A DNA stretch of 64,000 bases, from positions 124,001-188,000 of the forward strand of contig CALYLW010000984.1 in the NCBI GenBank assembly GCA_944989445.1. Reading direction: 5' to 3'. This document shows positions 8,827 through 46,315 of the stretch, piece after piece (positions within the stretch are counted from its first letter, which is position 1; every line of letters starts with the position of its first letter). The DNA is from Ampullaceana balthica (taxonomy: Eukaryota > Mollusca > Gastropoda > Lymnaeidae). The position numbers and the translations under genes are program-made. The notes beneath the pieces were generated by a model. That model did not search any database. It was not told the origin of the DNA and saw only the letters and a program-made list of their open reading frames with translations.

Positions 8827-8871
<45 letters not shown>

Positions 8872-8904: not shown

Positions 8905-8941
<37 letters not shown>

Positions 8942-10810: not shown

Positions 10811-11676
10811 TTAATTTGCTACTTGAATAATGTTTCCCGAGTAGAAATGCCATCCGCTCAAAGCTGTCAAAAGTTCGTTGTTTGCAACGTCTTGCTTGAC
10901 TCCTGCTCCTTGATTCCGCATCGGGTTTCGGAAAGGAACAAATCCTCTGGTCAATACAGGTCGAAAAGCACGTCCTTTTGGGTGTTGAACTTGCGTTCTA
11001 TCAATTGGCTGGGTTGTTTTTCCTTTGTTCTCCGAGTGGTTTTGTTCAACCTCCGTTTGATCTACTGATAAGCTTTTGGGATTTTGTTTCGGGATATTCC
11101 CAGGCGTCTCTCTTGTATTTGTCTTCGCATGTTTTTTCGGGACGTTCCCCGATAATTCTTTTCCTTTTTTCCTTAAATACGTTGTCGGGACATTCTCTGA
11201 CAGTCCAGTTATTCTTTTCTTTAAGTGAGTCTGCGGGGTATTTTCTGAAAGTTCCGTTGTTTTATTGTTTATATGTATTTTTGGGATATTCCCTGTTACC
11301 TCTGTTGCGTTTTTTGAATGACTTTTCGGGTTATTCCACTTTGAAAGTTTTTTTAAAACATCCTCCAACTGTTTTTCCGTATCACTCTTAGAATGTTTGT
11401 TGAACATGTCATTCGGCTGGTGTGTTGGTCGAGGACTACTTTGCCAAACTCTTGGTTTTCGTTCGGGACCATTTACCCTCTGAAACAACTCTGGTTTTTT
11501 CCAAATTATCCCGTGTTGTGACACTTCAGGGATATTTCTGGTTGCAGTTTTAACAAATGTCCCGCAGCCGAGTTGCTGGGCCAGGTGACGAAATCTTTCT
11601 GGGATAGCTGAACAGTTTATTGGCATTTTCTGGAGACGTGCAGGCGAATTTTGTATTCCCTTCCTTTTCAGGTTTC
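10811..11676 (-). CDS. Giant repeat protein, exon 5 (basic C-terminal domain)
   Basis: The acceptor TTAATCATTCCAG opens a frame of 287 codons ending in TAA. The first residue completes the phase-1 codon left by the giant exon (G + GA = Gly). The segment is rich in K, N, T and P. It contains five degenerate 16-residue repeats with the core (E/G)LSGNVPKxH, for example TTELSENTPQTHLKKR and GKELSGNVPKKHAKTN. The last 60 residues are more complex, with several Arg and the hydrophobic end ALSGWHFYSGNIIQVAN. Several N-x-S/T sites are present. The net basic charge contrasts with the acidic giant exon. No membrane anchor was seen. Confidence 0.65.
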
Positions 11677-12143
11677 CTGGAATGATTAAGACGTGTGAAA
11701 AACGGACACTTTAGTCCTGCATGATCTTAAGCAAGTCATATCATTATGAGTACCGTATACACTCGTTCTATAGCCCGTTCATTCATAAGCCCGACACCCC
11801 GCCCCCCCCACTTTTGGAAGGGAAAAGTATTAAAAGTGTATAACCCGATCGCAAGCCGACCCCCCAAAAATAATAGGAAAGCTTTTTAAAAATGTTACAG
11901 ATTTTTTTAAAACTACAAGCTAAATCGGTCATTATGATTGTTTAAATTGTACTGCCTATCGTTGTCTTTCTGCTCTTTGTTAAGCAAGAGTTACCGGTAT
12001 TTAAAAAAAAATATTTGGTAAACAGTGACGAAAGCGCGTACATTAAAATCCGTGGCTGAAAACAAAATTTGTAAAACAATTTATTAAAACGTTCACAAAA
12101 ATAAATAAAATGATTAAATAAGGTAAATGCTGATATCTAATAA

Positions 12144-15100
12144 CTAGGGGCAAGTACCCGGCTTCGCCCGGGTTTAAAATAAGGTTTTCTGTAGAAGCGT
12201 ACACAACTGTTTACTTGCATGCTATAAAATGGTACATTTAACAGTGTATGTGCTGCATGGCTTAATTTCAAGGATGTCACCATCCTCATCTTTCACAATA
12301 ACAGTTTTGAGATCTTCAAATGAAATAGGTCCCCGAATATGGTGCAGCAGGAGGCGCATGTGAAATGCTTCTCTGTTGTGAGGATGCACAGTGTACACTC
12401 TTCCCAAGGCATTGTCTGTCACATATCCCGGGAAGTCTGCAAGAGGTATACCTTTTTTCGGATTTGCCAGACCTTTTGACTGGCATCCCAGCGAAAATGT
12501 CTAGGCACTTCAGAATACAGCAATGTTTTTGCAAGAGGATCTGTTTTGCAGAGATCAAAAAACGCTGTTAATGTAGTCTTTGTTGGAGTGTCTGTCAAAT
12601 GTGCTGTTGTCTGTCCTGGTTTATAGTATACTCCTTGGCCTCCTTCAAGATGTACTGCCAAGTGAACAACTGTTGGATACCTTTGATGGATGGGAAAGTT
12701 AAGCAGGCGCCACACTGCCTCACTGCTACTAATGTATCGTCCTTGTTGATAATTGGTAACCCCATCAAGCCTGTTCGGCATTTCATTTGCAACAGTAAAC
12801 ATGGCCACATCACTTCCCTTGGTAACATAATTGCAAATCTACTTGATGCTTGTGTTTCTATGACGTACATAGGTCATTCCATCCTGTGCATATTCATGCA
12901 TGTAACGGGGCCCTCCACTGAAGGATGAAGGCAGCACCACTAATTTGCCATGATTTTCAGAAGTCACATTGTTGTCATTCCTTACTGCCTCTAATAGTAC
13001 ACCATAGTCCTCAGCTCTAAGTTTTGTTTGGTTGAGTCTGATGAAACGCAATCTCTCATTCTCAACCTTAGCATACATATCCACTATGTATTGCTGGTAA
13101 AGGCGCGGGCATCTGAGGAGTGTATTAAATTCGTTGACTCTTTGCATCATGCGATATGCATAGTAGTCATTGCTTGTGGCCTTGTTTACATCTTTTATGT
13201 TCAAATCATAGCCATCTTCTCCTCTAACAAATAGCAGAGGATACTGAAGTGGATCATATGACCTGTGAGTGTCTTGAATCCTTTGAAGTGGCATTTGTGA
13301 GCAACTTCTTGAATGCAGCACAATGTCTCTACGATCACCTAGCTCTCCAGCAATCATGATGCCACTTCACTAACAGATGGTGCATTGAATCTGCCTTTGT
13401 GTTCCTTTAATGGTGCTTTGCCGGAAATTTTGATTTTGTAGTCCACTTGAGTGTTATCCATAATCTCAGCAGCCATTTTAATTGACCTCACATAGCTGTT
13501 ATGCTGATGCAGCATTCTTTGCAGTTTGAGGACAATGTTTCTGTCAACAGGACTGTCAAGCAAATCCAGTCGTCTTTGCACTTGCTCATCTTCTCCCAAG
13601 AAGTAAATCTGGAGATATTTGCTGTCTATAGCATTGACTGGATGAAGAGGTCCAGCATGGTGGTACACTTGGCCTTGGACCTTGAATGTTGGTGTCCACC
13701 CGTTATTCACGACAACATTAGACTTGAAGGAAGTCACGGCAAACATATTATTGAATAGTCTAATAAGTTTCACAAAGTCCTTTGATTGTGCAGTTTCACC
13801 ATTCAACAGAATGCACAATGGTTCTGGTGGCTTTAGAATTGGGGCAGTTTGACTTTACCACTGGAACAGCACATGCCTGGAGTTTCTTTGCTCAGCTGTT
13901 TCAGCTGCTCTGGGAACTCTGTGGCGGACCTGATCTGCCTGGATTTTATATATTTTTTTTTCGTATGTTATCATTGCGGGAGAGTACTCAACAACTTCCC
14001 AAAGTTTCATGCTCCTATTTACACGGGAAGTTGGATATTTAATGATTAGTCTGTTTTATATAGCTCATATTAGGAAAATACCTACATTTTGGCCCAAGGC
14101 CCCCTAGTGAGTAATAATTTTATATATTTTTTTCGCATGTTACCATCGCGCGAGGGTACTCAAAATCTTCCAAAAGTTTCATTCTTCTACTTACATGGTA
14201 ATTTGGAGAATTATTGATGAGTCAGTTTGATATATGAAAAAAAACTACATTCAGGCCTCTGACCACCCAGTGAGTGATAATTTTTATTAATGTTTCGCCA
14301 GTTACCATTTTGGGAGGGTATATAACAACTTCACAAAGTTTCATGCTTCTACCTACACAGGAAATAGGAGATTTAATGATGAGCCTGATTTATATAGCTC
14401 ATTTAAGAAAAAACTACGTTTGGGCCCCCGCCCACCCCCCTACCCAGTTAGTGATAACTTTATACTTTTTTCGACTGTTACCATTGCGGGAGGGTACTCA
14501 ACGACTTTCCAAATTTTCATGCTTCTACCTACTCGGGAATATGAGGAATTGGTGTTGATTCAGTTTTATATATCCCATATAAGGAAAAACCGGTTTTGGG
14601 GCACCCGGCCACCCATGAGTGGAAATGTTTACATTATTTTTCACCAATTATCGTCATAATAGTGTATTTGGCAAGTTCCCAAAAGTTTCATGCTTCTACA
14701 TTCACGGGAGGTTGGAGAATTAGTTTCGAGTCAGTTTTAAATATACGGAAAAAAAATACATTTTGGCCCCCGCCCCCAGTAAGTGATAATTTATATAATT
14801 CATTTTTCTGTTGTATGGGGTTTATTTGTTTTAAAGAAACATTTCGAAACGCAATGTTTGAGCTTAAAATGTGCCCTGCTGGTTTCGTTTAAGTTATGCA
14901 AAAAGTATAAACACAGTTGCTTAGCTACAGTGTTTATGCCACCCAGGGATGGACGATATTATTGACTCCTACCCTCGCCGATAAAAGGAAAAAGCTTGAT
15001 CGGACGACTGGATAAAATACATATAGAATATACAAAAAAGAAACAGTGTAAAGTAAAAAATATGTAATTTGCAAACAAATTTTATAAAAATATATACGTA

Positions 15101-16872: not shown

Positions 16873-16887
16873 CAGATTGTCACTTAC

Positions 16888-19800
16888 CGGGCTGCCTTGG
16901 CCATTCAAATTTGTCAACAGATCTCGGTGTCATCAGATACGACCGAGTCACAGAGATCTTGTCAGGTGGTGCTGTCGTGAAATAACTTGACACAGAGAAC
17001 TTCTGGCTATTTTGTTTTGATGATGTCCCTGGATATTGAATTGTTGAAGCCTCAAGATATTGTGTTGATGATGTCTCTACATATTGAACTGATGTTTCAT
17101 CAAGATATTGTATCCATGATGTCTCTAGATATTCAATTGATGATTCCTCAAAATAAGGTATTAATGATGTCTCTAGATATTCAATTGACGATTCCTCAAG
17201 ATATTGTATTGATGATTCCTCTGGATATTGAATTATTGAGGTTTCGATATATTGAATTGATGTTTCCTCAAGATATTGTATCGATGATGTCTCTAGATAA
17301 TCAATTGATGATTCCTCAAAATATGGTATTAATGATGTCTCTAGATATTGAATTGATGATGTCTCTAGATATTCAATTGACGATTCTTCAAGATATTGTA
17401 TTGATGTTTCCTCAAGATATTGTATTGATGATGGCTCTATATATTGTATTGATGATGTCTCTAGATATTCAATTGACGATATCTCTGGATATTGAATTGA
17501 TGATATTTCTGGATATTGAATTGATGTTTCCTCAATATATTGTATTGATGTTTCCTCAAGATATTGTATTGATGATTCCTCAAGATATTGCATTGATGAT
17601 GTCTCTAGATATTCAATTGATGATATCTCTGGATATTGAATTGATGTTTCCTCACGATTTTGTATTGATGATTTCTCAAGATATTGTATTGATAATGGCT
17701 CTATATATTGTATTGATGATGTCACTAGATATTCAATTGATATTTCCTCAAGATATTGAATTGATATTTCCTCAAGATATTGAATTGATGATTCCTCTGG
17801 ATATTGTATTGATGATGGCTCTACATATTGTATTGATGATTCGTCAAGATATTGTATTGATGATTCCTCTGGATATTGAATTGATATTTCATCAAGATAT
17901 TGAATTGATATTTCCTCAAGATATTGTATTGATGATGTCTCTAGATAATGAATTGATATTTCCTCAAGATATTGAATTGATGATTCCTCTGGATATTGTA
18001 TTGATGATTCCTCAAGATATGGTATTGATGATTCCTCAAGATATTGTATTGATGATGGCTCTACATATTGTATTGATGATTCCTCAAGATATTGTATTGA
18101 TGATGGCTCTATATATTGTATTGATGATTCCTTAAAATATTGTATCGATAAAGTCTGTAGATATTCAATTGATGATATCTCTTGATATTGAATTGATGTT
18201 TCCTCACGATATTGTATTGATGATGTCTCTAGATATTGAATTGATATTTCCTCAAGATATTGAATTGAAGATTCCTCAAGATATTGAATTGAAGATTCCT
18301 CTGGATATTGTATTGATGATTCTTCAAGATATTGTATTGATGATGGCTCTACATATTGTATTGATGATTCCTCAAGATATTGTATTGATGATTCCTGTGG
18401 ATATTGAATTGATGTTTCCTCAAGATATTGTATTGATGATGTCTCTAGATTTTGAATTGATATTTCCTCAAGATATTGTATTGATAATTCCTCAAGATAT
18501 TGAATTGATATTTCCTCAAGATATTGTATTAATGATGTCTCTGGATATTGTATTGATGATTCCTCAAGATATTGTATTAATGATGTTTCTAGATATTGAA
18601 TTGATGATGTCTCTGGATATTGTATTGATGATTCCTCTGGATATTGTTTTGACGATGTCTCTAGATATTGAATTGATGATGTCTCTGGATATTGTATTGA
18701 TGATTCCTTAAAATATTGTATTGATGATGTCTCTTGATATTGAATTGATGATGTCTCTGGATATTGAATTGATGTTTCCTCAAGATATTGAATTGATGAT
18801 GTCTCTAGATATTGAATTGATGATGTCTCGAGATATTGAATTGATGATGTCTCGAGATATTGAATTGATGATACCTCAAGATATTGAATTGATATTTCCT
18901 CAAGATATTGAATTGATGATGTCTCTAGATATTGAATTGATGATACCTCAAGATAGTGTGCTGTTAATAATTGTGCATCTTGTATTTTACCTAAACTGGT
19001 AGCTTGTTTTGTAATTAAAGGGATGTCTTGTTCTCTATCAGCAGTTGTACTAACATCACTAACTAAAGATTTTGTCAATCCTGTTGCTGATTTCATTTCT
19101 TGTGCCGTAACTGGCATCGTCACCTCATATGTAAGAAAATTTGTGTCCAACTTTGTAAATGAAGTTTTGTCTTCTTCTATCAAAGATAAGGTAGGCCAGT
19201 CTGTAACGGATGTTTTGACTTCTTCTGTAACTGATGTTTTGAGGTCGTCATCAGTAGTAAAAAAGCTTATGCCTTTTTCGGTAACAAGAGATGTGTCTTG
19301 TTCTGTAACTGGTGAAGTGTCTTGTTCTGTAACTAGGGATGTGTCTTGTTCTGTAACTGGTGCTGTGTCTTTTACTGTCACATGCGATGTGTCTTGTTCT
19401 GTAACTGGTAACATGTCTTGTTCTGTAACTGGTGAAGTATCTTGTTCTGTAATTAGTGATGTGTCTTGTTCTGTAACTGGTGAAGTGTCTTGTTCTGTAA
19501 CTGGTGATGTGTCTTGTACTGTAACTGGTGATGTGTCTAGCTCTGTAACTGGTGATGTGTCTTGTTCTGTAACTGATGATGTGTCTTGTACTGTAACTGG
19601 TGATGTGTCTAGCTCTGTAACTGGTGATGTGTCTTGTTCTGTAACTGATGATGTGTCTTGTTCTATAACGGGTGATGTGTCTTGTTCTGTAACTGGTGAA
19701 GTGTCTTGTTCTGTAACTAGGGATGTGTCTTGTTCTGTAACTGGTGAAGTGTCTTGTTCTGTAACTAGCGATGTGTCTTGTTCTGTAACTGGTGAAGTGT

Positions 19801-22800
19801 CTTGTTCTGTAAATGGTGAAGTGTCTTGTTCTGTAACTAGGGATGTGTCTTGTTCTGTAACTGGTGAAGTGTCTTGTTCTGTAACTGGTGAAGTGTCTTG
19901 TTCTGTAACTGGTGATGTGTCTAGCTCTGTAACTGGTGATGTGTCTTGTTCTGTAACTGGTGATGTGTTCTGTTTTGTAATTAGTGAAGTGTCTTGTTCT
20001 TTAACTGGTGATGTGTCTAGCTCTGTAACTGGTGATGCGTCTATTTCTTTAAATGGTGATGTGTCTTGTTCTATAACGGGTGACGTGTCTTGTTCTGTAA
20101 CTGGTGATGTGTCTTGTTCTGTAAATTGTGATGTGTCGTGTTCTGTAACTGGTGATGTTTCTTGTTCTGTAACTGGTGATGTGTCTTGTTCTTTAAATGG
20201 TGATGTGTCTTGTTCTATAACTGGTGATGTTTCTTGTTCTGTAATTGGTGATGTGTCTTGTTCTGTAACTCGTGATGTGTCTTGTTCTTTAATTAGTGAA
20301 GTTTCTTGTTCTGTAACTGGTGATGTGTCTTGTACTGTAACTGGGGATGTGTCTAGCTCTGTAACTGGTGATGTGTCTAGTTCTGTAAATGGTGATGTGT
20401 CTTGTTCTATAACGTGTGATGTGTCTTGTTCTGTAACTGGTGATGTGTCTTGTTCTGTAAATTGTGATGTGTCATGTTCTGTAACTGGTGATGTGTCTTG
20501 TTCTGTAAATTGTGATGTTTCGTTTTCTGTAACTGGTAATGTGTCTTGTTCTGGAACTGGTGTTGTGTCTTGTTCTGTAACTGGTGATGTGTCTTGTTCT
20601 GTAACCAGTGACGTGTCTTGTTCTGTAATTATTGATGTGTCTTGTTCTGTAACTGGTGATGTGTCTTGTACTGTAACTGGTGATGTGTCGTGTTCTGTAA
20701 CTGATGATGTGTTTTGTTTTATAGGAAATGTTGTGCCTTGCTCTGTAACTGGTGATGTGTCTTGTTTTAGATCTAATTTTGTGTCTTGTTCTATTACGGT
20801 TGTTGTGTACATCATTGGGTCAGATCTTTTGTCTTGTTCAGTAATAGCTTTCGTTCCTTGTACTGTGAAAGCTGCCGTGTTCTCATCTGAAGCTAACATT
20901 GTGAACAGCTCTTTAACCGATGTTGTGTATAGTTTTGTAGCTGACGTGTTTTCTTTTATACTTACTGACGTATCGCGATCTTTAAATATTGTTATGTCTT
21001 CATCTGTACTAAAATAATCATTTTCTACAATTGTGTCATGTTCTCTAACTGATGTCTTATTTCGCGAGACTGATTTTATTTCTTCATTTTCTGATAACAA
21101 TGTGTTTCGCCTTGTATTAGACCAAGACTCTTGTTTAGTAACCGATTCCTCTTTTTCAGATGATATAAACGTATAATCAATCGGTATTGTTGCGACATCA
21201 CTTTGTATAGTTGTAACATTGTCTGGTGTGGCATGATAATATGCCATAGTCGTATTATCATAAGGTATTGTTGTTACATCATATGGTATTGTTTTAACAA
21301 CATCTGTTATAGTTGCAGCAGCATCTGGTAAAACTATACCATCTTTTGTTGTACTGGTCTCCTTATCTAGATGAAATGTATCTTTATCTGATACTGTCAT
21401 AGTCTGATCAGAAACATGTTTAATACTTTCTGTCACTGTTGTTGTATATACTTCTGGTATATTTGTGTCCTCATTTATGGTTGTTGAATTCCCATTTTGT
21501 TTAGTTTTAGAAATTTCAGGTATGTTGGATGCATCATGAATTAGTGACGATTTATCTTCAGCCGGTAGACTAATATCATCACCTGTTGTGGTGATATCGT
21601 CATCAGAATATTCATTTGTTGAATTAACAGGAGATATAATTGTATCATCATATGGATAAGTTGTATGGTCATCTCTTAAAGTTGTAGTATTCTCGACCAT
21701 TCCCCTTGTAAAGATTGATAACGTTGTGCTTGCATCTGTAATAGTCATACCCACATGGGGTATTGTTCTATCCAAATCTGGATCTTCGCTCACATCAGAT
21801 GTTATTGCAACTTCATGTGGTATAGTTCTACTCACATCTGGTGTAGGTGTACCCATATGTTGAATAGGTGTACCCACATCTGGTGTAGGTGTACCCGTAT
21901 GTTGAATAGGTGTACCCACATCTGGTGTAGGTGTACCCATATGTTGAATAGGTGTACCCACATCTGGTGTAGGTGTACCCATATGTTGAATAGGTGTACC
22001 CACATCTGGCGTAGGTGTACCCATATGTTGAATAGTTCTACCCACATCCTGTATTGTTGTGTCAACATCTGGAAAAGCTGTACCATTATATGGTCTTGTT
22101 GTATCCGCAAGTGATATATGTGTATCCAAATTGTGTATAGCTGTACCCAAATCTTGTTTTGTTGTATCCCCTACTACTGTAGTTGTATCCACATCTTTTA
22201 TAAATGTACCTATATATGGATAGGTTTTAACCACATCTGGGATCGTAGTATTCACAAGTTGTAAATATGTACTTTCACGTGGAACAACTTTATCAACACC
22301 TTTTGTTGCTTTATCTTCTAATCGTGTCTTTGTTTCCACAACTGGTAAACTTTCTAAACCTGTTCCACTTGTCCCAAAAACTGTCGTAGCTGTACCATAG
22401 TCTGATGTCGTCGTAACAACGAATTTTGTATTTTTATCCACATCTGCTATGCTGGTAGCCATCACTAATGTTGTTTTAACCAAATCTGACGTGGCTGTGT
22501 TCATAACTGGAGTGGCTATGTCAACATCTTGTATAGATGCTGTAGCTGTGTAAACATCTTGTTTAGTTACGTTTCTAAATGTTACAATAGAGTCAACATC
22601 CAGTATGGTTTTATCTATGTCTGATATAGATGTATTCACATATGGTTTTGTTTTATCCACAAATGGTGTACTTATATCCACGAATGGTATCGTTGTATCC
22701 GCACCTGAAATAGTTGTACCGACATCTGATATTGTTGTACCGACATCTGATATTGTTGTACCGACATCTGATATTGTTGTACCGACATCTGATATTGTTG

Positions 22801-31800: not shown

Positions 31801-34800
31801 TCTTGTGATCTACTGGTGTCTTGTGATATACTGGTGTCTTGTGATCTACTGGTGTCGCGTGATCTATTGGTGTCTTGTGATCTACTGGTGTCTTGTGATA
31901 TACTGGTGTCTTGTGATATACTGGTGTCTTGTGATATACTGGTGTCTTGTGATCTATTGGTGTCGCGTGATCTACTGGTGTCTTGTGATCTACTGGTGTC
32001 TTGTGATCTACTGGTGTCTTGTGATCTACTGGTGTCTTGTGATCTACTGGTGTCTTGTGATATACTGGTGTCGTGTGATCTACTGGTGTCGTGTGATCTA
32101 CTGGTGTCTTTTGATCTACTGGTGTCGTGGGAGCTACTGGTGTCTTGTGATCTACTGGTGTCTTGTGATCTACTGCTGTCGTGTGATCTACTGCTGTCGT
32201 GTGATCTACTGCTGTCGTGTGATCTACTGCTGTCGTGTGATCTACTGCTGTCGTGTGATCTACTGGTGTCGTGTGATCTACTGTTGTCGTGTGATCTACT
32301 GTAGTCTTGTGATCTACTGGTGTCGTGTGATCTACTGGTGTCGTGTGATCTACTGGTGTCGTGTGATCTACTGGTGTCGTGTGATCTACTGATGTCTTGT
32401 GGTCTACTGGTGTCGTGTGATCTACTGGTGTCGTGTGATCTACTGGTGTCTTGTGATCTACTGGTGTCGTGTGATCTACTGGTGTCTTGTGATCTACTGG
32501 TGTCGTGGGAGCTACTGCTGTCGTGTGATCTACTGGTGTCGTGGGAGCTACGGGTGTCTTGTGATCTACTGGTGTCGCGTGATCTACTGGTGTCTTGTGA
32601 TCTACTGGTGTCTTGTGATCTACTGGTGTCTTGTGATATACTGGTGTCTTGTGATCTACTGGTGTCTTGTGATATACTGGTGTCTTGTGATCTACTGGTG
32701 TCGCGTGATCTATTGGTGTCTTGTGATCTATTGGTGTCTTGTGATATACTGGTGTCTTGTGATCTACTGGTGTCGCGTGATCTATTGGTGTCTTGTGATC
32801 TACTGGTGTCTTGTGATATACTGGTGTCTTGTGATCTACTGGTGTCTTGTGATATACTGGTGTCTTGTGATCTACTGGTGTCTTGTGATATACTGGTGTC
32901 TTGTGATCTACTGGTGTCTTGTGATCTACTGGTGTCTTGTGATCTATTGGTGTCTTGTGATCTACTGGTGTCTTGTGATATACTGGTGTCTTGTGATCTA
33001 CTGGTGTCGCGTGATCTATTGGTGTCTTGTGATCTACTGGTGTCTTGTGATATACTGGTGTCTTGTGATATACTGGTGTCTTGTGATATACTGGTGTCTT
33101 GTGATCTATTGGTGTCGCGTGATCTACTGGTGTCTTGTGATCTACTGGTGTCTTGTGATCTACTGGTGTCTTGTGATCTACTGGTGTCTTGTGATCTACT
33201 GGTGTCTTGTGATATACTGGTGTCGTGTGATCTACTGGTGTCGTGTGATCTACTGGTGTCTTTTGATCTACTGGTGTCGTGGGAGCTACTGGTGTCTTGT
33301 GATCTACTGGTGTCTTGTGATCTACTGGTGTCGTGTGATCTACTGCTGTCGTGTGATCTACTGCTGTCGTGTGATCTACTGCTGTCGTGTGATCTACTGC
33401 TGTCGTGTGATCTACTGGTGTCGTGTGATCTACTGGTGTCGTGTGATCTACTGGTGTCGTGTGATCTACTGTTGTCGTGTGATCTACTGCTGTCGTGTGA
33501 TCTACTGCTGTCGTGTGATCTACTGCTGTCGTGTGATCTACTGCTGTCGTGTGATCTACTGGTGTCGTGTGATCTACTGTTGTCGTGTGATCTACTGTAG
33601 TCTTGTGATCTACTGGTGTCGTGTGATCTACTGGTGTCGTGTGATCTACTGGTGTCGTGTGATCTACTGGTGTCGTGTGATCTACTGGTGTCTTGTGATC
33701 TACTGGTGTCGCGTGATCTACTGGTGTCGCGTGATATACTGGTGTCGTGTGATCTACTGGTGTCGTGTGATCTACTGGTGTCGTGTGATCTACTGGTGTC
33801 GCGTGATCTACTGGTGTCGCGTGATCTACTGGTGTCTTGTGATCTACTGGTGTCTTGTGATCTACTGGTGTCTTGTGATCTACTGGTGTCGTGTGATCTA
33901 CTGCTGTCGTGTGATCTACTGGTGTCGTGTGATCTACTGGTGTCGTGTGATCTACTCGTGTCGTGTGATCTACTGTTGTCGTGTGATCTACTGTAGTCTT
34001 GTGATCTACTGGTGTCGTGTGATCTACTGGTGTCGTTTGATCTACTGGTGTCGTGTGATCTACTGGTGTCTTGTGATCTACTGGTGTCGCGTGATCTACT
34101 GGTGTCGTGTGATCTACTGGTGTCGTGTGATCTACTGGTGTCGTGTGATCTACTGGTGTCGTGTGATCTACTGGTGTCGTGTGATCTACTGGTGTCTTGT
34201 GGTCTACTGGTGTCGTGTGATCTACTGGTGTCGTGTGATCTACTGGTGTCGTGTGATCTACTGGTGTCTTGTGATCTACTGGTGTCGTGTGATCTACTGG
34301 TGTCGTGGGAGCTACGGGTGTCTTGTGATCTACTGGTGTCGCGTGATCTATTGGTGTCGCGTGATCTACTGGTGTCTTGTGATCTACTGGTGTCTTGTGA
34401 TCTACTGGTGTCTTGTGATATACTGGTGTCGTGTGATCTACTGGTGTCGTGTGATCTACTGGTGTCGTGTGATCTACTGGTGTCGTGGGAGCTACTGGTG
34501 TCTTGTGATCTACTGGTGTCTTGTGATCTACTGGTGTCGTGTGATCTACTGGTGTCGTGTGATCTACTGGTGTCGTGTGATCTACTGGTGTCGTGTGATC
34601 TACTGCTGTCGTGTGATCTACTGGTGTCGTGTGATCTACTGGTGTCGTGTGATCTACTGGTGTCGTGTGATCTACTGGTGTCGTGTGATCTACTGGTGTC
34701 GTGTGATCTACTGGTGTCGCGTGATCTACTGGTGTCGCGTGATCTACTGGTGTCGCGTGATCTACTGGTGTCGCGTGATCTACTGGTGTCGCGTGATCTA

Positions 34801-37800
34801 CTGGTGTCCCGTGATCAACTGGTGTCGCGTGATCTACTGGTGTCGCGTGATCTACTGGTGTCTTGTGATCTACTGGTGTCGTGTGATCTACTGCTGTCGT
34901 GTGATCTACTGGTGTCGTGTGATCTACTGGTGTCGTGTGATCTACTGGTGTCGTGTGATCTACTGGTGTCGTGGGAGCTACGGGTGTCTTTTGATCTACT
35001 GGTGTCGTGTGATCTATTGGTGTCGCGTGATCTACTGGTGTCTTGTGATCTACTGGTGTCGTGTGATCTACTGGTGTCGTGTGATCTACTGGTGTCGTGT
35101 GATCTACTGGTGTCTTGTGATCTACTGGTGTCTTGTGATCTATTGGTGTCGTGTGATCTACTGGTGTCTTGTGATCTACTGGTGTCGTGTGATCTACTGG
35201 TGTCGTGTGATCTACTGGTGTCGCGTGATCTACTGGTGTTGTCTCTGTGGTTTCGTCATTAACTGGTGTTGTCTTTGGAGATTTACTACCGATTGTTATA
35301 GCTTCATAAACAAGTGTTTCACCGTCAACTGTATTGACATCAATTGTAAAATCCGATGGTGTTGTATCTGTTGTTATATCATCAGCTGGTGTTATATCAT
35401 CATGTGGTGTTATATCTTCAAATGGTGTTTTCTCTGGTGTTTTATCATTTCTTTGCATTTTATCATCAAATGGTTTTTCGTCCCCGACTGTTGTATGATT
35501 AGCTGTTGTAAAACTATTTTCAGTTGTATCTGCTGTTTTACCATCAAACGGTGTTGTAAAATCGACTTCTGTTTTCTCTGGTGTTTTATAATCACCTGGT
35601 GTTGGATCATCAACTAGTTGTATATCATCATCATCATCTGTTGCTTTATCATTAACTTGTATTGTATCTTCAGCTGGTTTTGTCTCTGGCACTTTATAAA
35701 CAGCTTGGGTCGAAAAATCAAACTTTGTCTTCCCTGATGTTGTTTCATTAAATAGTCTTTTATCATCAGCTGGTGTTTTAATGTCAACTGTCGTCGTGCC
35801 ATCAGCTGGTGTTTTAATGTCAACTGTCGTCGTGCCATCAGCTGGTGTTTTAATGTCAACTGTCGTCGTGCCATCAGCTGGTGTTTTAATGTCAACTGTC
35901 GTCGTGCCATCAGCTGGTGTTTTAATGTCAACTGTCGTCGTGCCATCAGCTGGTGTTTTAATGTCAACTGTCGTCGTGCCATCAGCTGGTGTTTTAATGT
36001 CAACTGTCGTCGTGCCATCAGCTGGTGTTTTAATGTCAACTGTCGTCGTGCCATCAGCTGGTGTTTTAATGTCAACTGTCGACGTGCCATCAGCTGGTGT
36101 TTTAATGTCAACTGTCGTCGTGCCATCAGCTGGTGTTTTAATGTCAACTGTCGTCGTGCCATCAGCTGGTGTTTTAATGTCAACTGTCGTCGTGCCATCA
36201 GCTGGTGTTTTAATGTCAACTGTCGTCGTGCCATCAGCTGGTGTTTTAATGTCAACTGTCGTCGTGCCATCAGCTGGTGTTTTAATGTCAACTGTCGTCG
36301 TGCCATCAGCTGGTGTTTTAATGTCAACTGTCGTCGTGCCATCAGCTGGTGTTTTAATGTCAACTGTCGTCGTGCCATCAGCTGGTGTTTTAATGTCAAT
36401 TGTCGTCGCGCCATCAGCTGGTGTTTTAATGTCAACTGTCGTCGTGCCATCAGCTGGTGTTTTAATGTCAACTGTCGTCGTGCCATCAGCTGGTGTTTTA
36501 ATGTCAACTGTCGTCGTGCCATCAGCTGGTGTTTTAATGTCAACTGTCGTCGTGCCATCAGCTGGTGTTTTAATGTCAACTGTCGTCGTGCCATCAGCTG
36601 GTGTTTTAATGTCAACTGTCGACGTGCCATTAGCTGGTGTTTTAATGTCAACTGTCGACGTGTCATCAGCTGGTGTTTTAATGTCAACTGTCGTCGTGCC
36701 ATCAGCTGGTGTTTTAATGTCAAATGTCGTCGTGCCATCAGCTGGTGTTTTAATGTCAACTGTCGTCGTGCCATCAGCTGGTGTTTTAATGTCAACTGTC
36801 GTCGTGCCATCAGCTGGTGTTTTAATGTCAACTGTCGTCGTGCCATCAGCTGGTGTTTTAATGTCAACTGTCGTCGTGCCATCAGCTGGTGTTTTAATGT
36901 CAACTGTCGTCGTGCCATCAACTGGTGTTTTAATGTCAACTGTCGTCGTGCCATCAGCTGGTGTTTTAATGTCAACTGTCGTCGTGCCATCAGCTGGTGT
37001 TTTAATGTCAACTGTCGTCGTGCCATCAGCTGGTGTTTTAATGTCAACTGTCGTCGTGCCATCAGCTGGTGTTTTAATGTCAACTGTCGTCGTGCCATCA
37101 GCTGGTGTTTTAATGTCAACTGTCGTCGTGCCATCAGCTGGTGTTTTAATGTCAACTGTCGTCGTGCCATCAGCTGGTGTTTTAATGTCAACTGTCGTCG
37201 TGCCATCAGCTGGTGTTTTAATGTCAACTGTCGTCGTGCCATCAGCTGGTGTTTTAATGTCAACTGTCGACGTGCCATCAGCTGGTGTTTTAATGTCAAC
37301 TGTCGACGTGCCATCAGCTGGTGTTTTAATGTCAACTGTCGTCGTGCCATCAGCTGGTGTTTTAATGTCAACTGTCGTCGTGCCATCAGCTGGTGTTTTA
37401 ATGTCAACTGTCGTCGTGCCATCAGCTGGTGTTTTAATGTCAACTGTCGTCGTGCCATCAGCTGGTGTTTTAATGTCAACTGTCGTCATGCCATCAGCTG
37501 GTGTTTTAATGTCAACTGTCGTCGTGCCATCAGCTGGTGTTTTAATGTCAACTGTCGACGTGCCATCAGCTGGTGTTTTAATGTCAACTGTCGACGTGCC
37601 ATCAGCTGGTGTTTTAATGTCAACTGTCGTCGTGCCATCAGCTGGTGTTTTAATGTCAACTGTCGTGCCATCAGCTGGTGTTTTAATGTCAACTGTCGTC
37701 GTGCCATCAGCTGGTGTTTTGATGTCAACTGTCGTCGTGCCATCAGCTGGTGTTTTAATGTCAACTGTCGTCGTGCCATCAGCTGGTGTTTTCATGTCAA

Positions 37801-40800
37801 CTGTCGTCGTGCCATCAGCTGGTGTTTTGATGTCAACTGTCGTCGTGCCATCAGCTGGTGTTTTGATGTCAACTGTCGTCGTGCCATCAGCTGGTGTTTT
37901 GATGTCAACTGTCGTCGTGCCATCAGCTGGTGTTTTGATGTCAACTGTCGTCGTGCCATCAGCTGATGTTTTGATGTCAACTGTCGTCGTGCCATCAGCT
38001 GGTGTTTTGATGTCAACTGTCGTCGTGCCATCAGCTGGTGTTTTGATGTCAACTGTCGTCGTGCCATCAGCTGGTGTTTTGATGTCAACTGTCGTCGTGC
38101 CATCAGCTGGTGTTTTGATGTCAACTGTCGTCGTGCCATCAGCTGGTGTTTTGATGTCAACTGTCGTCGTGCCATCAGCTGGTGTTTTGATGTCAACTGT
38201 CGTCGTGCCATCAGCTGGTGTTTTGATGTCAACAGTCGTCGTGCCATCAGCTGGTGTTTTGATGTCAACTGTCGTCGTGCCATCAGCTGGTGTTTTGATG
38301 TCAACTGTCGTCGTGCCATCAGCTGGTGTTTTGATGTCAACTGTCGTCGTGCCATCAGCTGGTGTTGAATCATTTATTGGTGTTGTACATTCAACTGGTT
38401 GTGTCTCTGCTGTTATGTCATTGAATGTTGTTTGATCATCTACCGGTGTTTTATCACGAAATGGTGCTTTAAAATCAACTGTTGCCATTTCTGGTGTTTT
38501 ATCCTCAACCTTTTTGTCATCAAATGGTATTGTTGTACCAGCTATTGGTTTTGTCCCTGGTGTTGAATTATCAACTGGTGTTGCGTCATTAAATGGTGTT
38601 GCATCATTGAATGGTGTAGCATCGTCTACACGTTTGGTGACATTGATTGAAGTTACATCAACAACTTGCCTTGCGTCGTCAACTAGAACTGTATCCTCAG
38701 AAGATGTTTTATCAACTTGACCTGTCTCTGGTGTTTTATCGTTAAATGATATTCTATCATCAAGTTGTGTTGTATTATCAACTTGACCTGTCTCTGGTGT
38801 TTTATCGTTAAATGATATGCTATCATCAAGTGGTGTCGTATTATCAACTTGACCTGTCTCTGGTGTTTTATCGTTAAATGATATTCTATCATCAAGTGGT
38901 GTTGTATTATCAACTTGACCTGTCTCTGGTGTTTTATCGTTAAATGATATTCTATCATCAAGTGGTGTTGTATTATCAACTTGACCTGTCTCTGGTGTTT
39001 TATCGTTAAATGATATTCTATCATCAAGTGGTGTTGTATTATCAACTTGACCTGTCTCTGGTGTTTTATCGTTAAATGATATTCTATCATCAAGTGGTGT
39101 TGTATTATCAACTTGACCTGTCTCTGGTGTTTTATCGTTAAATGATATTCTATCATCAAGTGGTGTTGTATTATCAACTTGACCTGTCTCTGGTGTTTTA
39201 TCGTTAAATGATATTCTATCATCAAGTGGTGTTGTATTATCAACTTGACCTGTCTCTGGTGTTTTATCGTTAAATGATATTCTATCATCAAGTTGTGTTG
39301 TATTATCAACTGGTGTGCTTCCTGGTGTTGCATTAACAAATGATGCTTTATGATGAACTGGTGTGGTTTTATGGACTGGTGTTGCATTATTAACTTGTAT
39401 CATTGTATCATTTTGTATTGCTGAATACTCGTCATCACAGCCAATGCTATAATCATCGTGAATAGGTGTATGTCCTTTTGGCAGAGCTGTTGTTTCATCT
39501 TGAATAGTTGTATGTCCTTTTGGTAGAGCTGTTGTATCATTTTTAATAGTTGTATGTCCTTTTGGTAGAGCTGCTGTATCATTTTGGATTGTTGTATATC
39601 CTTTTGGTAGAGCTGCTGTATCATTTTGGATAGTTGTATGTACTTTAGATAGAGCTTTTGTATCATTTTGAATAGTTGTATGTCCTTTTGGTAAAGCTGC
39701 TGTATCATCTTGAATAGTTGTATGTCCTTTTGGTATAGCTGCTGTATCATTTTGAATTGTTGTATGTCCTTTAAGGAAAGCTGTTGTATCATCTTGAATA
39801 GTTGTATGTCCTTTTGGCAGAGCTGGTTTTTCATTTTGAATAGTTGTATGTCCTTTTGGTAGAATTGTTGAATCATTTTGAATAGTTGTATGTCCTGTTG
39901 GTAGAGCTTTTGTATCATTTTGAATAGTTGTATGTCCTTTTGGTAGAGCTGTTTGATTAATTTGAATAGATGTATGTACTTTAGGTAGAGCTTTTGTATC
40001 ATTTTGAATAGTTTTATATACTTTTGGCAGAGCTGCTGTATCCTTTTGAATAGTTGTATGTCCTTTTGGTAGCGCTATTGTATCATTTTGAATTGTATGT
40101 CCTTTTGGTAGAGCTGTTGTATAATTTTGAATTGTTGTATGTCCTTTTGGTAGAGCTGTTGTATCATTTTGAATTGTTGTATGTCCTTTTGGTAGAGCTG
40201 TTGTATCATCTTGAATAGTTGTATGTCCTTTTGGTAGAGCAACTGTATCATCTTTGAATTGTTGTATGTCCTTTTGGTAGAGCTGTTGTATCATCTTGAA
40301 TAGTTGTATGTACTTTTGATAGAGCTGCTGTATCATCTTGAATAGTTGTATGTCCTCTTGGCATAGCTGCTGTATCATTTTGAATTGTTGTATGTCCTTT
40401 TAGTATAGCTGTTGTATCATCTTGAATAGTTGTATGTCCTTTTGGCAGAGCTGTTGTTTCATCTTGAATAGTTGTATGTCCTTTTGGCAGAGCTGTTGTA
40501 TCATTTTGAATAGTTGTATGTCCTTTAGGTAGAGCTGTTTGATAGTTTTGAATAGTTGTATGTACTTTAGGTAGAGCTTTTGTTTCATTTTGACTAGTTG
40601 TATGTACTTTTGGTAGAGCTGCTGTATCATTTTGGATAGTTGTATGTACTGTTGGCAGAGCTGCTGTATCCTTTTGAATTGTTGTATGTCCTTTTGGTAG
40701 TGCTGTTGTATCATCTTGAATAGTTGTATGTCCTGTTGGTAGAGCTTTTGTATCATTTTGAATAGTTGTATGTCCTTTAGGTAGAGCTGTTTGATCGTTT

Positions 40801-42166
40801 TGAATAGTTGTATGTACTTTAGGTAGAGCTTTTGTATCATTTTGAATAGTTGTATGTACTTTTGGTAGAGCTGCTGTATCATTTTGGATAGTTGTATGTA
40901 CTGTTGGCAGAGCTGCTGTATCCTTTTGAATTGTTGTATGTCCTTTTGGTAGAGCTGTTGTATCATTTTGAATTGTATGGCCTTTTGGTAGAGCTGTTGT
41001 ATCATTTTGAATTTTTGTATGTCCTTTTGGTAGAGCTGTTGTATCATCTTGAATAGTTGCATGTACTTTTGGTAGAGCTGCTGTATCATCTTGAATAGTT
41101 GTATGTCCTTTTGGCAGAGCTGTTGTATCATCTTGAATTGTTGTATGTCCTTTTGGTAGAGATGTTGTATCATTTTGAATAGTTGTATATCCTTTTGGTA
41201 GAGCTGTTGAATAATTTTTAAGTATTGTATGTTCTTTTGGTAGAGCTGTTGTATAATTTTGAACCATTTGCACATATTTTGGTACAGCTGTTGTAATCTC
41301 ATCTTCCATGGTTGAATTAACATTTTGAATATCTGCAACATCGTGATCTTGAAATATTGAACTACTTTTTCTTGTGACATTTGAATCTTCAACTAACACT
41401 GGTATGTTATTGTTGGGAATTTCTCTTTCATCAACGCCTTGTGTTACTCTGTCCTGTTCTTTGATGCTGCCTTCTTCATGTATTATACTTGTGACTGGAG
41501 CCTGCATGTCGCTCTCTGTTACATGCTCTTGGTCTTGTTCAGCTCTGTTGTTTTGAAACATTCCAGAATCATCTTCACTTGGTCTCTCTACATTCTCTGA
41601 ATTTATTTGATTCACGTTTTGATTTGTTACAAACTGCACCATCACATGTGTCAACCTCTCATCCTCGTCATTTGTCGCTCGGTCTCCTTGGTCAATTTTT
41701 ACTTTGTTAAGCTGTCCTAAAGTCCCTGAAGTTTGTTCCGTAGTTTGAACATTTTCCAAAGTTTGTTTCGTCATATGACCATCTTCCACAGTTTGTTCCG
41801 CCGTTTGAACATCGTCCGAATTTAGTCCCTTCCGCCGAAAAGTGTCTGAAGTTTGTTCCTTTAGATTAAAATTGTTTGAAGAATCATGTATTTCATTTGT
41901 TTTGGCGTTATTCGAAGTTTTCGTCTTAACTGTCCCGTTAAGACTCTCATAAACCACGGATTCGGGTATTAATTCAGTTTTGTGAGGCTCTCTAAAGTCC
42001 TGGCCAACTGTGGGCTCTAGTTTTGAGGATGAATTCTGTTTCTGTGATGGAAGAGTTACTGTGGATGTTGTGACCCTATCGCTGCGTGTGTTTCCAGCAG
42101 TCGCGTCAGGATTTGGTCCGGTCATCTTGTTGTTTGTTGTCGTAAACAAATGCAATGTTGCCAGTG
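16888..42166 (-). CDS. Giant repeat protein, exon 4 (about 25.3 kb, ~8,425 codons)
   Basis: The acceptor TTATTCCCCAG precedes 42166, and an open frame runs from there to the donor at 16887, apart from one frame change near 40253. The first ~285 residues are non-repetitive, acidic and S/T/N-rich. At least nine tandem arrays then follow, separated by short unique linkers: 14-, 22-, 12-, 6-, 14-, 7-, 14-, 8- and 8-residue units. All units are multiples of three bases. Thr is dominant and Asp, Pro, Val, Ser and Glu are common. Cys is nearly absent (for example in SDICAIQ and PVECTTP). Extensive O-glycosylation is likely from composition but not shown. Long plus-strand frames across the arrays are periodicity artefacts. 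Confidence 0.85.
17010..18965 (-). repeat. 8-residue array SSIQYLEE in exon 4
   Basis: About 80 copies of a 24-bp unit encoding variants of SSIQYLEE (LEE, LET, PEE, VEP). The unit is unlike the Thr/Asp-rich arrays upstream: regular Tyr, Gln and paired Glu, with hydrophobic I/Y/L spacing. It is the last array before the C-terminal exon. Confidence 0.93.
19270..20790 (-). repeat. 8-residue array TSPVTEQD in exon 4
   Basis: About 63 copies of a 24-bp unit encoding DTSPVTEQ with substitutions at Pro and Val. It is bounded by unique linkers on both sides. Confidence 0.93.
20995..21835 (-). other. Non-repetitive linker of the giant protein
   Basis: About 280 residues without tandem repeats, including DYFSTDEDITIFKDRDTSV and many N-x-T sites. 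It is a better place to seek homology than the arrays. Confidence 0.7.
21835..22040 (-). repeat. 14-residue array GTPIQHMGTPTPDV in exon 4
   Basis: Five near-identical 42-bp units, one with a Met to Thr change. It is embedded in degenerate Asp/Thr-rich sequence (21690-22600). Confidence 0.9.
22690..24970 (-). repeat. 7-residue array GTTISDV in three higher-order blocks
   Basis: A 21-bp unit encoding GTTISDV repeats about 20 to 37 times per block. Three blocks each begin with a shared leader (EGKPLLDFRTAVSDICAIQS) and end with GADTTIPFVDIS. The two downstream blocks are offset by exactly 708 bp and the upstream block is 294 bp longer. This is duplication of whole blocks on top of unit amplification. 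Confidence 0.93.
25000..26870 (-). repeat. Degenerate 14-residue array AVYTTIPDVATETP
   Basis: About 44 diverged 42-bp units with Tyr or His after Val, and a conserved T-x-P or T-x-S plus DVAT core. It is far more diverged than its neighbours, so probably an older array. Confidence 0.85.
27105..27290 (-). repeat. Short TTPVYH array
   Basis: About nine 18-bp units encoding TTPVYH, with an interruption (DDDVSLDATP). It is related to the TTPVDH array by a single Asp to Tyr change. Nearby VNDKTP units (27370-27430) are a further variant. Confidence 0.85.
27815..35242 (-). repeat. 6-residue array TTPVDH, about 410 copies
   Basis: An 18-bp unit encoding (T/K/A)T(P/A/T)V(D/Y)H repeats over 7.4 kb, the largest array in the window. 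Variants cluster: KTPVYH near 31.4-33.2 kb, TTAVDH near 30.6-33.6 kb, and APTTPV at scattered points. This shows local segmental copying. A 1,152-bp duplication (64 units) is described under findings. Confidence 0.96.
35771..38366 (-). repeat. 12-residue array PADGTTTVDIKT, about 72 copies
   Basis: A highly uniform 36-bp unit. Rare changes include TTT to TST, one unit lacking a Thr codon (near 37665), and a silent third-base change that switches from one half of the array to the other near 37.7-37.8 kb (ATGTCAAC preceded by TTTTA or TTTTG), marking two expansion episodes. Confidence 0.96.
38705..39315 (-). repeat. 22-residue array with DKTPETGQVDNTTP core
   Basis: Nine 66-bp units. Each reads LDDRISFND followed by KTPETGQVDNTTP, with a few Gln or Ser variants at the array ends. 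The block shares the TPxxxxVD theme of neighbouring arrays. Confidence 0.94.
39458..41263 (-). repeat. 14-residue array DTTALPKGHTTIQN
   Basis: About 43 copies of a 42-bp unit with conserved ALPKGHTTIQ and variable T/A/K before it. This array holds the frame change. Unlike the other arrays it has regular Lys and His. Confidence 0.93.
40251..40255 (-). other. Single-base frameshift in exon 4
   Basis: Plus-strand TCATCTTTGAAT replaces the TCATCTTGAAT found in sister repeat units, an extra T at 40253-40255. Upstream the frame reads TTALPKGHTTIQ and then stops at 40248. Downstream the same motif resumes one frame over. The exon is 25,279 bp, one more than a multiple of three, while its boundaries are phase 1-1, so one surplus base is exactly what splicing also predicts. 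Confidence 0.9.
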
Positions 42167-42994
42167 CTGGGGAATAAAGTAATGTCATTTACTGTTTATA
42201 AATTCCTAATATTTTGATTGATTTTATTTATTTTTTCCTCGGCGAGATCTGCCCCTTGTTTTAAGAACTTTTGTTATTATTTTTTTTAAACAATATATGG
42301 AGGAAAAAAAAGAATCAAAATAATTCAATATAGTAATGTATTTTTAACGAAAACTATGTATTAGGCGCTGATCTTGATTTCAGCATCTCACTTTCTTATG
42401 ATTATTGGAAACAATGTATTTTTGCTACGAAAAAAAAAGCCATTTTATCTATTTATGTAATTCACCAGGACAAGCACAAGACGTGTGCAAATAAGCATGA
42501 CGAATTACCCTTGTTAGGGTCGACCAATCACTTTTTTGTATGGTTGGTAAGCGATGGTAGTAAAGGGTGGGGCGGGGGGCAGGTAACAACAACAGTGCGC
42601 ATGTCTTGAAACCAACAATGCGTCGGCGATTCCTCCGCCCCCCCCCCGACGTTCACTCGCGTTGTTTTCATTTCTTCGTACTGCTGTTTGTGTCCGTTGT
42701 CCCCCCCCCTATTCTTTGCACTATATATGAGCAAGTCTGCGGTGTATGCTACACCGTGGGTGGTATCTATTTTTCTTTATTTCTCCTTATCTACGACCAA
42801 GACTTTACGAATTAGCATGGAAAATGTTTTACTTCGATTCCAATCTATATTCCATACATGGATTGTAGATCATACCATGTCTTACGTCAGAGAAACACTG
42901 AAATGTATTTCCTTATCTACAGTCAACAGTAGCCAGTCTCATACATACCGGACTTAATGTCCTTATCTACAGTAGTAGCCAGTCTCATACTTAC
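42167..42994 (-). other. Intron 3 of the giant gene
   Basis: Donor CCA|GTAAGT at 42994 and acceptor TTATTCCCCAG at 42167. It contains the Helitron-like element at 42448-42770. Confidence 0.55.
42448..42770 (+). mobile_element. Short Helitron-like element (family 2, copy 1)
   Basis: Starts A|TCTATTTATGTAATTCACCA and ends with AGCAAGTCTGC, the hairpin GGTGTATGCTACACC, then GTGGGTGGTATCTAT. It shares GGGTCGACCAATCA and the GTGCGCATGTC region with the copy at 47353. The end is CTAT rather than CTAG, so it is decayed. Confidence 0.5.
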
Positions 42995-43036
42995 TGGACT
43001 CGTCTGCTTCGTCATACTCGGAGTAATCGACACCAG
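42995..43036 (-). CDS. Giant repeat protein, exon 3 (acidic)
   Basis: A 42-bp exon between acceptor TTCATTTTAACAG and donor CCA|GTAAGTATG. Phase 1-1, encoding (A)GVDYSEYDEADES, strongly acidic with two Tyr. Such Y/D/E clusters are candidates for Tyr sulfation, by inference only. Confidence 0.6.
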
Positions 43037-44589: not shown

Positions 44590-45414
44590 TGATGAAATTT
44601 CGCAGTATGCTAGATGAATTGATAAAATGGTAAACTAACTGGAGTATGATTTTCCACCCAGAAAAGTGTCAACTGTTAAGAGTAACAAAGAAAAAGAAAC
44701 AAATAAATTCAAAATATTTCATTCATGGAAAGGAACTAACCCAAACTAAAGATGCAAAATACTTAGGAGTCATAATAAATGAGAAATTATCATGGAATCC
44801 CCATGTCAATGAAGTTATTAAAAAATCAAACAAAACCTTAGGCTTTATAAAAAGAAACTTTAACAAATGTAATAGAGATATAAAACTAAAATGCTACCTC
44901 ACTTTGGTGAGACCTGTACTAGAATATGCATCTTCTGTATGGGACCCATCCACCAAAGAAAACATTGATAAACTAAAGCAAATCCAAAAAAGAGCTGCCA
45001 GATTCATTACTGGAGAATATTCAAAACTGACAAGAATAACATCATTAGTTAAATCATTAAAACGTGAAACACTAGAGGATAGAAGAACCAAGAGTAAAGT
45101 AGTAATCATACATAAAGCAATTAATTCTAATTTAGAAATACAACACAAAGATAACTTAATACAACCCTCAGATAGACATAAGGATAAAAACACCTTTCTT
45201 ATTCCGTATGCAAGAACAAACACATACAAATTTTCATTCTTCCCGTCCGGAATTCGGGCGTGGAATGGGTTGCCTGAATAAACCAGGAAAGCCAACACTT
45301 TATCAACATTTAAAACTCTAATAAGAATGCAGGACTAAACACAAACCATAGATAAGCGTAGGACGCAATAATCTTCTGTATAGAAGGGGCGTCTGAAACA
45401 TATAAGATAAGAAG
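44590..45414 (+). mobile_element. 5'-truncated non-LTR retrotransposon (LINE), Jockey/CR1-like
   Basis: The element keeps only the end of the reverse transcriptase and a 3' tail. The tail (45361-45414) has GGACGCAATAATCTTCTG and ends ATAAGATAAGAAG, the same tail as the SINE at 10157-10209. It lies in intron 2, antisense to the giant gene. Confidence 0.75.
44646..45338 (+). pseudogene. LINE reverse transcriptase C-terminal fragment
   Basis: The frame contains KYLGVIINEKLSWNPHV, LVRPVLEYASSVWDP, QKRAARF and WNGLPE, the conserved thumb-side block of Jockey/CR1/L2-type reverse transcriptases. The upstream W*TNWSMIFHPEKC has an internal stop, and a second stop follows WNGLPE, after which the family sequence continues to TAA at 45336. 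The catalytic YxDD box is not present, being lost by 5' truncation. Inactive. Confidence 0.8.
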
Positions 45415-45746: not shown

Positions 45747-45803
45747 CTTGGATATCGTCTAAGTTGAGTTTCTCCTCAGGCTCAAAGACGAAACAGCTCA
45801 CTC
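45747..45803 (-). CDS. Giant repeat protein, exon 2
   Basis: A 57-bp exon between acceptor TTACCGTCTGCAG and donor CAAG|GTAACG, phase 1-1. It encodes GVSCFVFEPEEKLNLDDIQ. Joined to exon 1, the hydrophobic leader ends HGVSC, a plausible signal-peptidase site before the acidic FEPEEKLNLDD. Confidence 0.6.
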
Positions 45804-46278
45804 CTGCAGACGGTAAACGTAAACCTTTTAAATATTGGACTGGACAATTAAACGAAAGTCATCGCGAGCGAGGTCTTCTTGACTTTAACATTTTGATTTC
45901 AAGTCAGCGAAAAGTGCTACTTTTTTAATTTTATTGTTTTCACAGAGGATATTATGAATTAATTTACATATGAAGTATGTAGTTCTACAACATTTAAGTC
46001 TTTATTCCATTGAAAATATCCAGATTTAGTCAGTCTAAAAATTTGTGTCATTTTGTAATAATTTAAAACATAATGTTACTAATTAAAATTCCGTTGGCCA
46101 ATGAACGACACAAAAACTTTTCTTTATAGTATCCCGAGCCATTTTAGTTTTAAAGAAAATTGAATGCCTTCCAATGATATAGTCTTATTAAACGTTTTGA
46201 TGTAACCTAAAACTCCTCAAATGCCCTGCTTTAGAGTTTACTAGGTTTACAATTGAAATGACAGGTGAGGATTCTTAC

Positions 46279-46315
46279 CATGGATCAACAGGACTAGCGC
46301 CACGGTAATCCACAT
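46279..46315 (-). CDS. Giant repeat protein, exon 1 (signal peptide)
   Basis: ATG then 11 more codons, MWITVALVLLIH, and one base before the donor G|GTAAGA. The hydrophobic core followed by HGVSC from exon 2 forms a signal peptide of about 16 residues. It lies 475 bp upstream of exon 2. Confidence 0.6.

Follow-up and report, generated by a model that had tools for sequence, protein, structure and literature searches.

A predicted five-exon gene for a giant mucin-like repeat protein in the gastropod Ampullaceana balthica

The gel-forming mucins MUC2, MUC5AC, and MUC5B have VWD domains and Cys-rich regions at their ends. An A-B-A scheme is given for gel-forming mucins in the pertinent passages of PMC10475054, where the mucins of snail mucus are also called hard to detect by proteomics and transcriptomics, owing to their sugars and repeats. 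Giant variable number tandem repeat (VNTR) exons are the rule among human mucins in the corresponding passages of PMC13345508, with a MUC4 VNTR exon of up to 27,843 bp and a predicted MUC12 protein of up to 23,080 amino acids. For Drosophila, excerpts of PMC2515642 report mucin-like proteins of 300 to 23,000 amino acids, with 6 mucins and 3 mucin-related proteins lacking conserved domains; a mucin is defined there by a Ser-plus-Thr content (S+T) above 25% and at least four repeats, with repeats covering more than one-third of the length, and the Lang rule quoted there asks for S+T 20% and Pro (P) 5%. Here, we describe a locus of Ampullaceana balthica (assembly GCA_944989445.1; 1.097 Gb in 3,363 contigs) that we read, with somewhat better than even confidence, as a five-exon gene for a secreted mucin-type gel polymer of ~8,758 residues, probably disordered and probably O-glycosylated. 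It lies in a 64,000-nucleotide (nt) window of contig CALYLW010000984.1 (C984:124001-188000); coordinates are window positions unless prefixed by a contig.

The five-exon structure is likely, with splicing predicted: five minus-strand exons running from 46315 to 10811 join to ~8,758 residues and 946 kDa (computed). The frame, the repeats, and the composition are read directly in the DNA, as is the lack of a known domain in the parts scanned; splicing, secretion, glycosylation, and gel formation are inferred. The exons are as follows.

46279..46315, minus strand: exon 1, with ATG, MWITVALVLLIH, and the predicted signal-peptide core; donor ATG/GTAAGA, phase 1
45747..45803, minus strand: exon 2, end of the predicted signal peptide, then the acidic start of the mature protein
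42995..43036, minus strand: exon 3, GVDYSEYDEADES, a short acidic peptide with Tyr
16888..42166, minus strand: exon 4, 25,279 nt, nine arrays and nine linkers; donor CCG/GTAAGTG
10811..11676, minus strand: exon 5, basic C-terminal part, 288 residues including the shared Gly codon, with 2 Cys and a self-repeat of 16 residues (z 6.5); TAA stop

An earlier note on this DNA had proposed exactly these exon ends, together with phase-1 junctions and consensus splice sites, and all of this held. Every junction is phase 1 in its local frames, and donors and acceptors rank in the top 2% of the window's minus strand: the four donors in the top 0.03 to 1.91% of 3,090 GT (exon 1 in the top 0.65%, exon 4 first) and the four acceptors in the top 1.07 to 1.63% of 4,225 AG. 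The signal-peptide exon and the two small exons that the note placed upstream also form the best predicted chain, topping the 5 possible within 4.3 kb upstream; among 150 random anchors on the contig, none had a chain as good and 142 had no chain at all, with thresholds chosen after the exon 1-2-3 chain had been seen. Splice-site matrices served for the ranks and the chain test alike. The predicted signal reaches an 8-residue hydropathy of 3.18, and by the -3/-1 rule the cut would presumably fall after ...HGVSC in exon 2.

The earlier note had also described a nearly unbroken frame of more than 25 kb. That description is fair in outline; the frame is really two open reading frames (ORFs) of 646 codons (40251-42188) and 7,839 codons (16883-40399), separated by one +1 break. 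The 7,839-codon frame counts little by itself, because a satellite on the same contig, outside the window (C984:195500-211400; L016-L018), is open by accident: its 16 kb, with a 26-bp unit and 608 matched units, contain 0 stops in each of the three minus frames (5,300 codons each). Openness of the array frame was accordingly rejected as evidence for coding, and the satellite serves as a natural control against taking open arrays for genes.

What carries the coding reading is the DNA between the arrays, through which the frame of exon 4 is likely conserved. Across 16 stretches free of Tandem Repeats Finder (TRF) repeats, each at least 30 nt and together 1,468 codons, the coding frame has 0 stops; the other minus frames have 92 and 183, the plus frames 102, 33, and 83, and 2,000 base shuffles of the same stretches gave a mean of 104 and a minimum of 75. 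Spacing within the arrays points the same way. Main array units are 18, 21, 24, 36, 42, or 66 nt long, and all irregular gaps but the frame break (11 of 12) are multiples of three, compared with 0 of 8 in the 26-bp satellite, where all 8 are off by one base within 16 kb. Units share a single phase within every array set compared (nine sets with 799 matched units; R7 left out and R1 split at the break), and the ratio of nonsynonymous to synonymous differences between units (pN/pS) is below 1 in seven of the nine, the units being non-independent. Together these comparisons are a worked example of how, where minisatellites abound, coding arrays can be distinguished from satellites that are merely open.

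Nine tandem arrays (R1 to R9) make up 77% of the product, or 6,723 of 8,742 mature residues. From the N to the C end their units measure 14, 22, 12, 6, 14, 7, 14, 8, and 8 residues.

41264..42166, minus strand: linker 1, the non-array part at the N-terminal end of exon 4, with a short 30-nt array at 41729-41817
39452..41263, minus strand: R1, 42-nt (14-residue) array LPKGHTTIQNDTTA, containing the frame break
40248..40256, minus strand: sole frame break seen, a 42-nt R1 unit one base longer than its neighbours
38705..39311, minus strand: R2, 66-nt (22-residue) array VDNTTPLDDRISFNDKTPETGQ, 9 units
35764..38366, minus strand: R3, 36-nt (12-residue) array PADGTTTVDIKT, 71 matched units
27812..35239, minus strand: R4, 18-nt (6-residue) array TPVDHT/K/A, 412 matched units
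24979..26855, minus strand: R5, 42-nt (14-residue) array PAVYTTIPDVATET
22688..24867, minus strand: R6, 21-nt (7-residue) array GTTISDV, in three blocks
21815..22048, minus strand: R7, 42-nt (14-residue) array GTPTPDVGTPIQHM
20767..21814, minus strand: linker 8, the longest array-free stretch
19290..20766, minus strand: R8, 24-nt (8-residue) acidic array EQDTSPVT, 60 matched units
17017..18955, minus strand: R9, 24-nt (8-residue) acidic, Tyr-rich array SSIQYLEE, 80 matched units

In-frame cyclic comparison of the unit consensuses with codon shuffles suggests three period families, set after the periods had been seen: R2-R3-R4 (6 residues), R1-R5-R6-R7 (7 residues), and R8-R9 (8 residues, by period only). 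Eight of 10 within-family pairs fell at or below 0.026 in the shuffles (exceptions R1-R6 and R8-R9), compared with 1 of 26 between-family pairs (R7-R9). The array-free linkers (1,468 residues) retain a related spacing: Thr follows Thr at 7 residues 60 times against 38.4 expected (z 4.4; 0 of 1,000 shuffles), with a weak excess at 6 (49 against 38.8; z 2.0; 21 of 1,000 shuffles), a deficiency at 2 to 4 (z -2.9 to -4.6), an excess of Asp at T+4 (z 5.8), and a lesser one of Pro at T+1 (z 2.7). Earlier z values were higher because short arrays had remained in the linkers, and a spacing of 6 at z 5.6 was dropped on finding that it came mostly from these. Among seven stretches of at least 80 residues, the signal is carried mainly by linker 7 (z 3.9) and linker 8 (z 2.1); the other five are unremarkable (z -1.4 to 1.4). 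Because Thr spacing of 7 and Asp at T+4 are in excess, at least linkers 7 and 8, beside 7-residue arrays, look like decayed older T-x-x-x-D units. A few short units, of 6, 7, and 8 residues, were probably re-amplified again and again as the gene grew; the locus, a whole giant repeat gene in one contig, illustrates how such growth may happen.

The product contains 21.9% Thr, 5.6% Ser, 9.0% Pro, 15.6% Asp plus Glu, 6.2% Lys plus Arg, and 5.8% His, with 70 N-glycosylation sequons; the polyampholyte of about 8,760 residues described by the earlier note is thus present in prediction (8,758 computed) and is acidic. With S+T at 27.5%, P at 9.0%, and nine arrays, it falls within the mucin composition rules of PMC2515642; 100-residue windows at S+T 25% and P 5% take in 7,197 of 8,742 residues, and the Pro-, Thr-, and Ser-rich (PTS) repeats exceed one-third of the length. 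Pro is scarce in R6 and R9. The Drosophila PTS-repeat mucins, as characterized in the same excerpts of PMC2515642, are likewise repeat proteins, recognized by how much Ser and Thr they contain and by their repeats; compared by description only, the snail product differs in its nine arrays of three periods, its His/Asp block, and its basic C-terminal exon.

Human MUC4, MUC12, and MUC16 share with this gene a repeat domain in one huge coding exon, according to the passages of PMC13345508 cited above. They are membrane-tethered, whereas no membrane span was found here (highest 19-residue hydropathy in the mature chain, 1.03). Exons of MUC4 and MUC12 can exceed the 25,279 nt of exon 4, so size is no novelty: the exon, of a length that the earlier note called rare and typical of mucins and giant matrix proteins, is long without standing out among mucins, given the lengths reported for MUC4 and MUC12 in that source. 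With MUC2, MUC5AC, and MUC5B the product shares a Thr-rich central part, great size, and likely secretion. It differs in having 10 Cys in the 8,742 residues of the mature chain and in the absence of mucin domains from the pieces scanned against Pfam (linker 1 with upstream R1; part of linker 5; linkers 7 and 8 with R7; R8 to the end of exon 4; exon 5). These two features indicate that there are no A-type ends. VWD, C8, CysD, cystine-knot, and SEA domains were all absent from the scanned pieces. From its sequence, the product is best filed as a putative mucin-like protein, neither a gel-forming nor a tethered mucin.

Mucus-type gel is the use we prefer, and sequence alone cannot separate mucus, adhesive, and shell. 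Packed at acid pH in granules, the chain would swell once released, and Ca2+ condensation and swelling are known for polyanionic mucins (PMC2978103, in the part relevant here). Units of 6 and 7 residues would space Thr, as sugar sites, and Asp regularly along the chain. The TPVDHT block (R4; 2,479 residues, among them 392 His and 376 Asp) would be collapsed inside the granule and self-repelling outside it, because its charge per 100 residues, by simple pKa, goes from +2.9 at pH 5.5 to -9.3 at pH 8.2. Such an R4-type block offers a testable pH and metal response. At pH 8.2 the most acidic arrays, R8 (-20.1) and R9 (-18.8), adjoin exon 5, the downstream exon that the earlier note had rightly called basic (+9.0); chains might pair through them or be tied with Ca2+, and such ties could stand in for the disulphide domains of vertebrate gel mucins. 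A more specific version, which we consider unlikely, makes the product a lineage-restricted block-copolymer mucin that gels without disulphide domains: three mother units would have given nine blocks of graded charge, with a D-H pH and metal switch, a basic tail that ties chains by way of the acidic blocks, and a Thr spacing that outlives the units in the linkers.

The chain is probably disordered, as judged from single-sequence folds. Exon 5 gave a predicted local distance difference test score (pLDDT) of 50 with a few helices, and a 330-amino-acid stretch from R3 through linker 4 into R4 gave pLDDT 40, with strands confined to the first 58 residues, at its R3 end; both folds are weak evidence. 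A hexapeptide beta-solenoid, considered for TPVDHT, did not appear in the latter fold (weak model; pLDDT 40).

Several findings weigh against a disordered mucin-type polymer. A stricter mucin-domain threshold is S+T 40% and P 5% per 100 residues, and 0 of 8,742 residues lie in 100-residue windows at that level. R9 is rich in Glu, Tyr, Leu, and Ile, with 5.3% Thr and 3.7% Pro, unlike a mucin domain, and no network-forming domain was seen in the product. R8 scores 33.9 bits against Pfam Gp5_trimer_C (PF22178; cut-off 30.9), with 0 stretches passing alone, and it matches DUF2345 weakly. Both families are spike beta-helices with short repeats; the Gp5_trimer_C match is likely a repeat effect, and R8 may nevertheless be folded. 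Thr spacing is absent from linker 1 (z 0.6, 1.2) and linker 9 (z -1.4). Downstream R1 has a pN/pS of 1.06, R4 shows no purifying signal at 6.75 by units, and the +1 break interrupts the frame. The R4 ratio is not read as selection, because only 26 unit types exist among its 412 units; positive selection was rejected in favour of the amplification of few variants. Other Pfam matches were below cut-off and taken for repeat artefacts, and the sole Protein Data Bank (PDB) sequence match of R8, to a ribosomal uL4 chain (E 9.6e-5), was read as low complexity.

The main rival is a metal-bound structural gel or thread, and more broadly a load-bearing or mineral-associated matrix protein of shell, byssus-like thread, egg capsule, or adhesive; we rate this as possible, though clearly less probable than the mucin-type polymer. 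Its His/Asp block would bind Zn2+, Cu2+, or Ca2+, and its Tyr-rich R9 would be cross-linked. It stands as the main rival because R4 holds 15.8% His over 2,479 residues, near the mussel preCol His-rich ends, which in the passage of PMC6477608 drawn on here measure 20 to 100 residues at ~20 mol% His. High His in a mollusc extracellular protein (here predicted) is the shared trait; the snail block differs in being far longer and in its 6-residue D-H repeats, and there is no collagen-like run. R9, with 12.2% Tyr, also favours a matrix protein, as does a genome with mollusc-type haemocyanin domains: PF14830 has 35 matches in it and 0 in 14 control genomes, and one haemocyanin exon matches 12 distinct solved haemocyanin sequences, which we take to be molluscan. 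Against it, the product lacks RGD and any run of five G-X-Y, the Pfam-scanned parts contain no known matrix domain, and S+T and P fit the mucin rules.

That the +1 break is real and the allele broken or null, so that translation yields no more than about the first 684 residues, is improbable. The upstream frame does hit a TGA at 40250-40248, and neither linker 1 nor exon 5 was found a second time in the assembly for comparison. Against a null allele, however, the 8,422 other codons of exon 4 contain 0 stops, and the linkers of a long-dead gene would contain some. At the rate of the control satellite (8 in ~16 kb, some of which may be copies of one event), ~10 irregularities would be expected in 20,220 nt of arrays, and one single-base irregularity was seen. 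This pattern fits frame constraint together with a single event, either a slip in the assembly or a young mutation; because the control satellite has 8 one-base gaps in 16 kb, a lone slip across 20.2 kb of arrays may be an error of assembly. The TGA-T at the break would formally allow an antizyme-like +1 shift, which was set aside as needless, the unit being simply one base longer.

That exon 4 is untranscribed satellite DNA, open by chance, deserves almost no credence: open minisatellites are common in this genome (besides the 16-kb array on the same contig, in the stretches read of contigs C343 and C1203 and beside a haemocyanin exon), but just one frame is open through the array-free stretches, the array gaps keep to multiples of three, and splice sites flank the exon below an upstream signal chain. 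The minisatellite beside the haemocyanin exon (L032; G000:C193:833330-836500) is open for more than 500 codons directly after a haemocyanin domain exon and is perhaps intronic.

The earlier note matched the protein to no family, and the unique parts tested agree: exon 5, linkers 1, 7, and 8, and part of linker 5 had no acceptable Pfam match. It had also suggested searching proteins with the linkers and exon 5. In a 5.8-billion-protein set, searched through word-sharing candidates within length classes and without a positive control, no relative was found at E 1 for exon 5 (329 candidates), linker 8 (1,925), or the N-terminal 310 residues of exon 4, which include linker 1 (1,453). Exon 5 had no PDB match, and six array unit peptides had no match in the papers searched. 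Because no relative emerged within these bounds, the product may be fast-evolving or lineage-bound.

Within the genome, exon 5 and the 240-residue N-terminal part of linker 1 had no other match at E 0.001 (best for exon 5, E 0.216 on C1203). Linker 8 had faint matches, the best 30% identical at E 6.3e-5 on C2889 with stops inside, and R6-R7 with linker 7 had weak ones (best E 1.6e-5 on C343 and 1.9e-5 on C86). Paralogues elsewhere were rejected: the weak matches were judged low-complexity, with stretches read on C343 and C1203 only, which proved to be minisatellites having several open frames. Two other loci bear a weak likeness to R6, with frames of 4,266 codons (C97:1522495-1523289) and up to 1,497 codons (C397:261002-269230); they could be more giant genes or, equally, satellites that happen to be open.

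The surrounding sequence contains several other elements. Intron 4 holds Helitron remains (12422-13854, minus strand; Helitron_like_N, PF14214, at 12842-13366, E 4.5e-23) that are not part of the product, and the neighbouring ORFs had no Pfam match at 0.01. A 78-bp array (16546-16880) lies in the same intron a few bases past the exon 4 donor. In intron 2, a 215-codon ORF (44634-45278, plus strand) looks reverse transcriptase-like by eye, with no Pfam match at 0.01. There were 0 Rfam matches at gathering scores and 0 tRNAs. At 7492-8965 a long GGGA/AGGA run is followed by a CCTT run, forming an inverted purine-pyrimidine repeat of ~1.5 kb. Farther along the contig, a 290-codon ORF with degenerate GPILGLRSKEGSYSSPHD repeats (C984:218504-219373, minus strand; L019) is possibly another repetitive gene.

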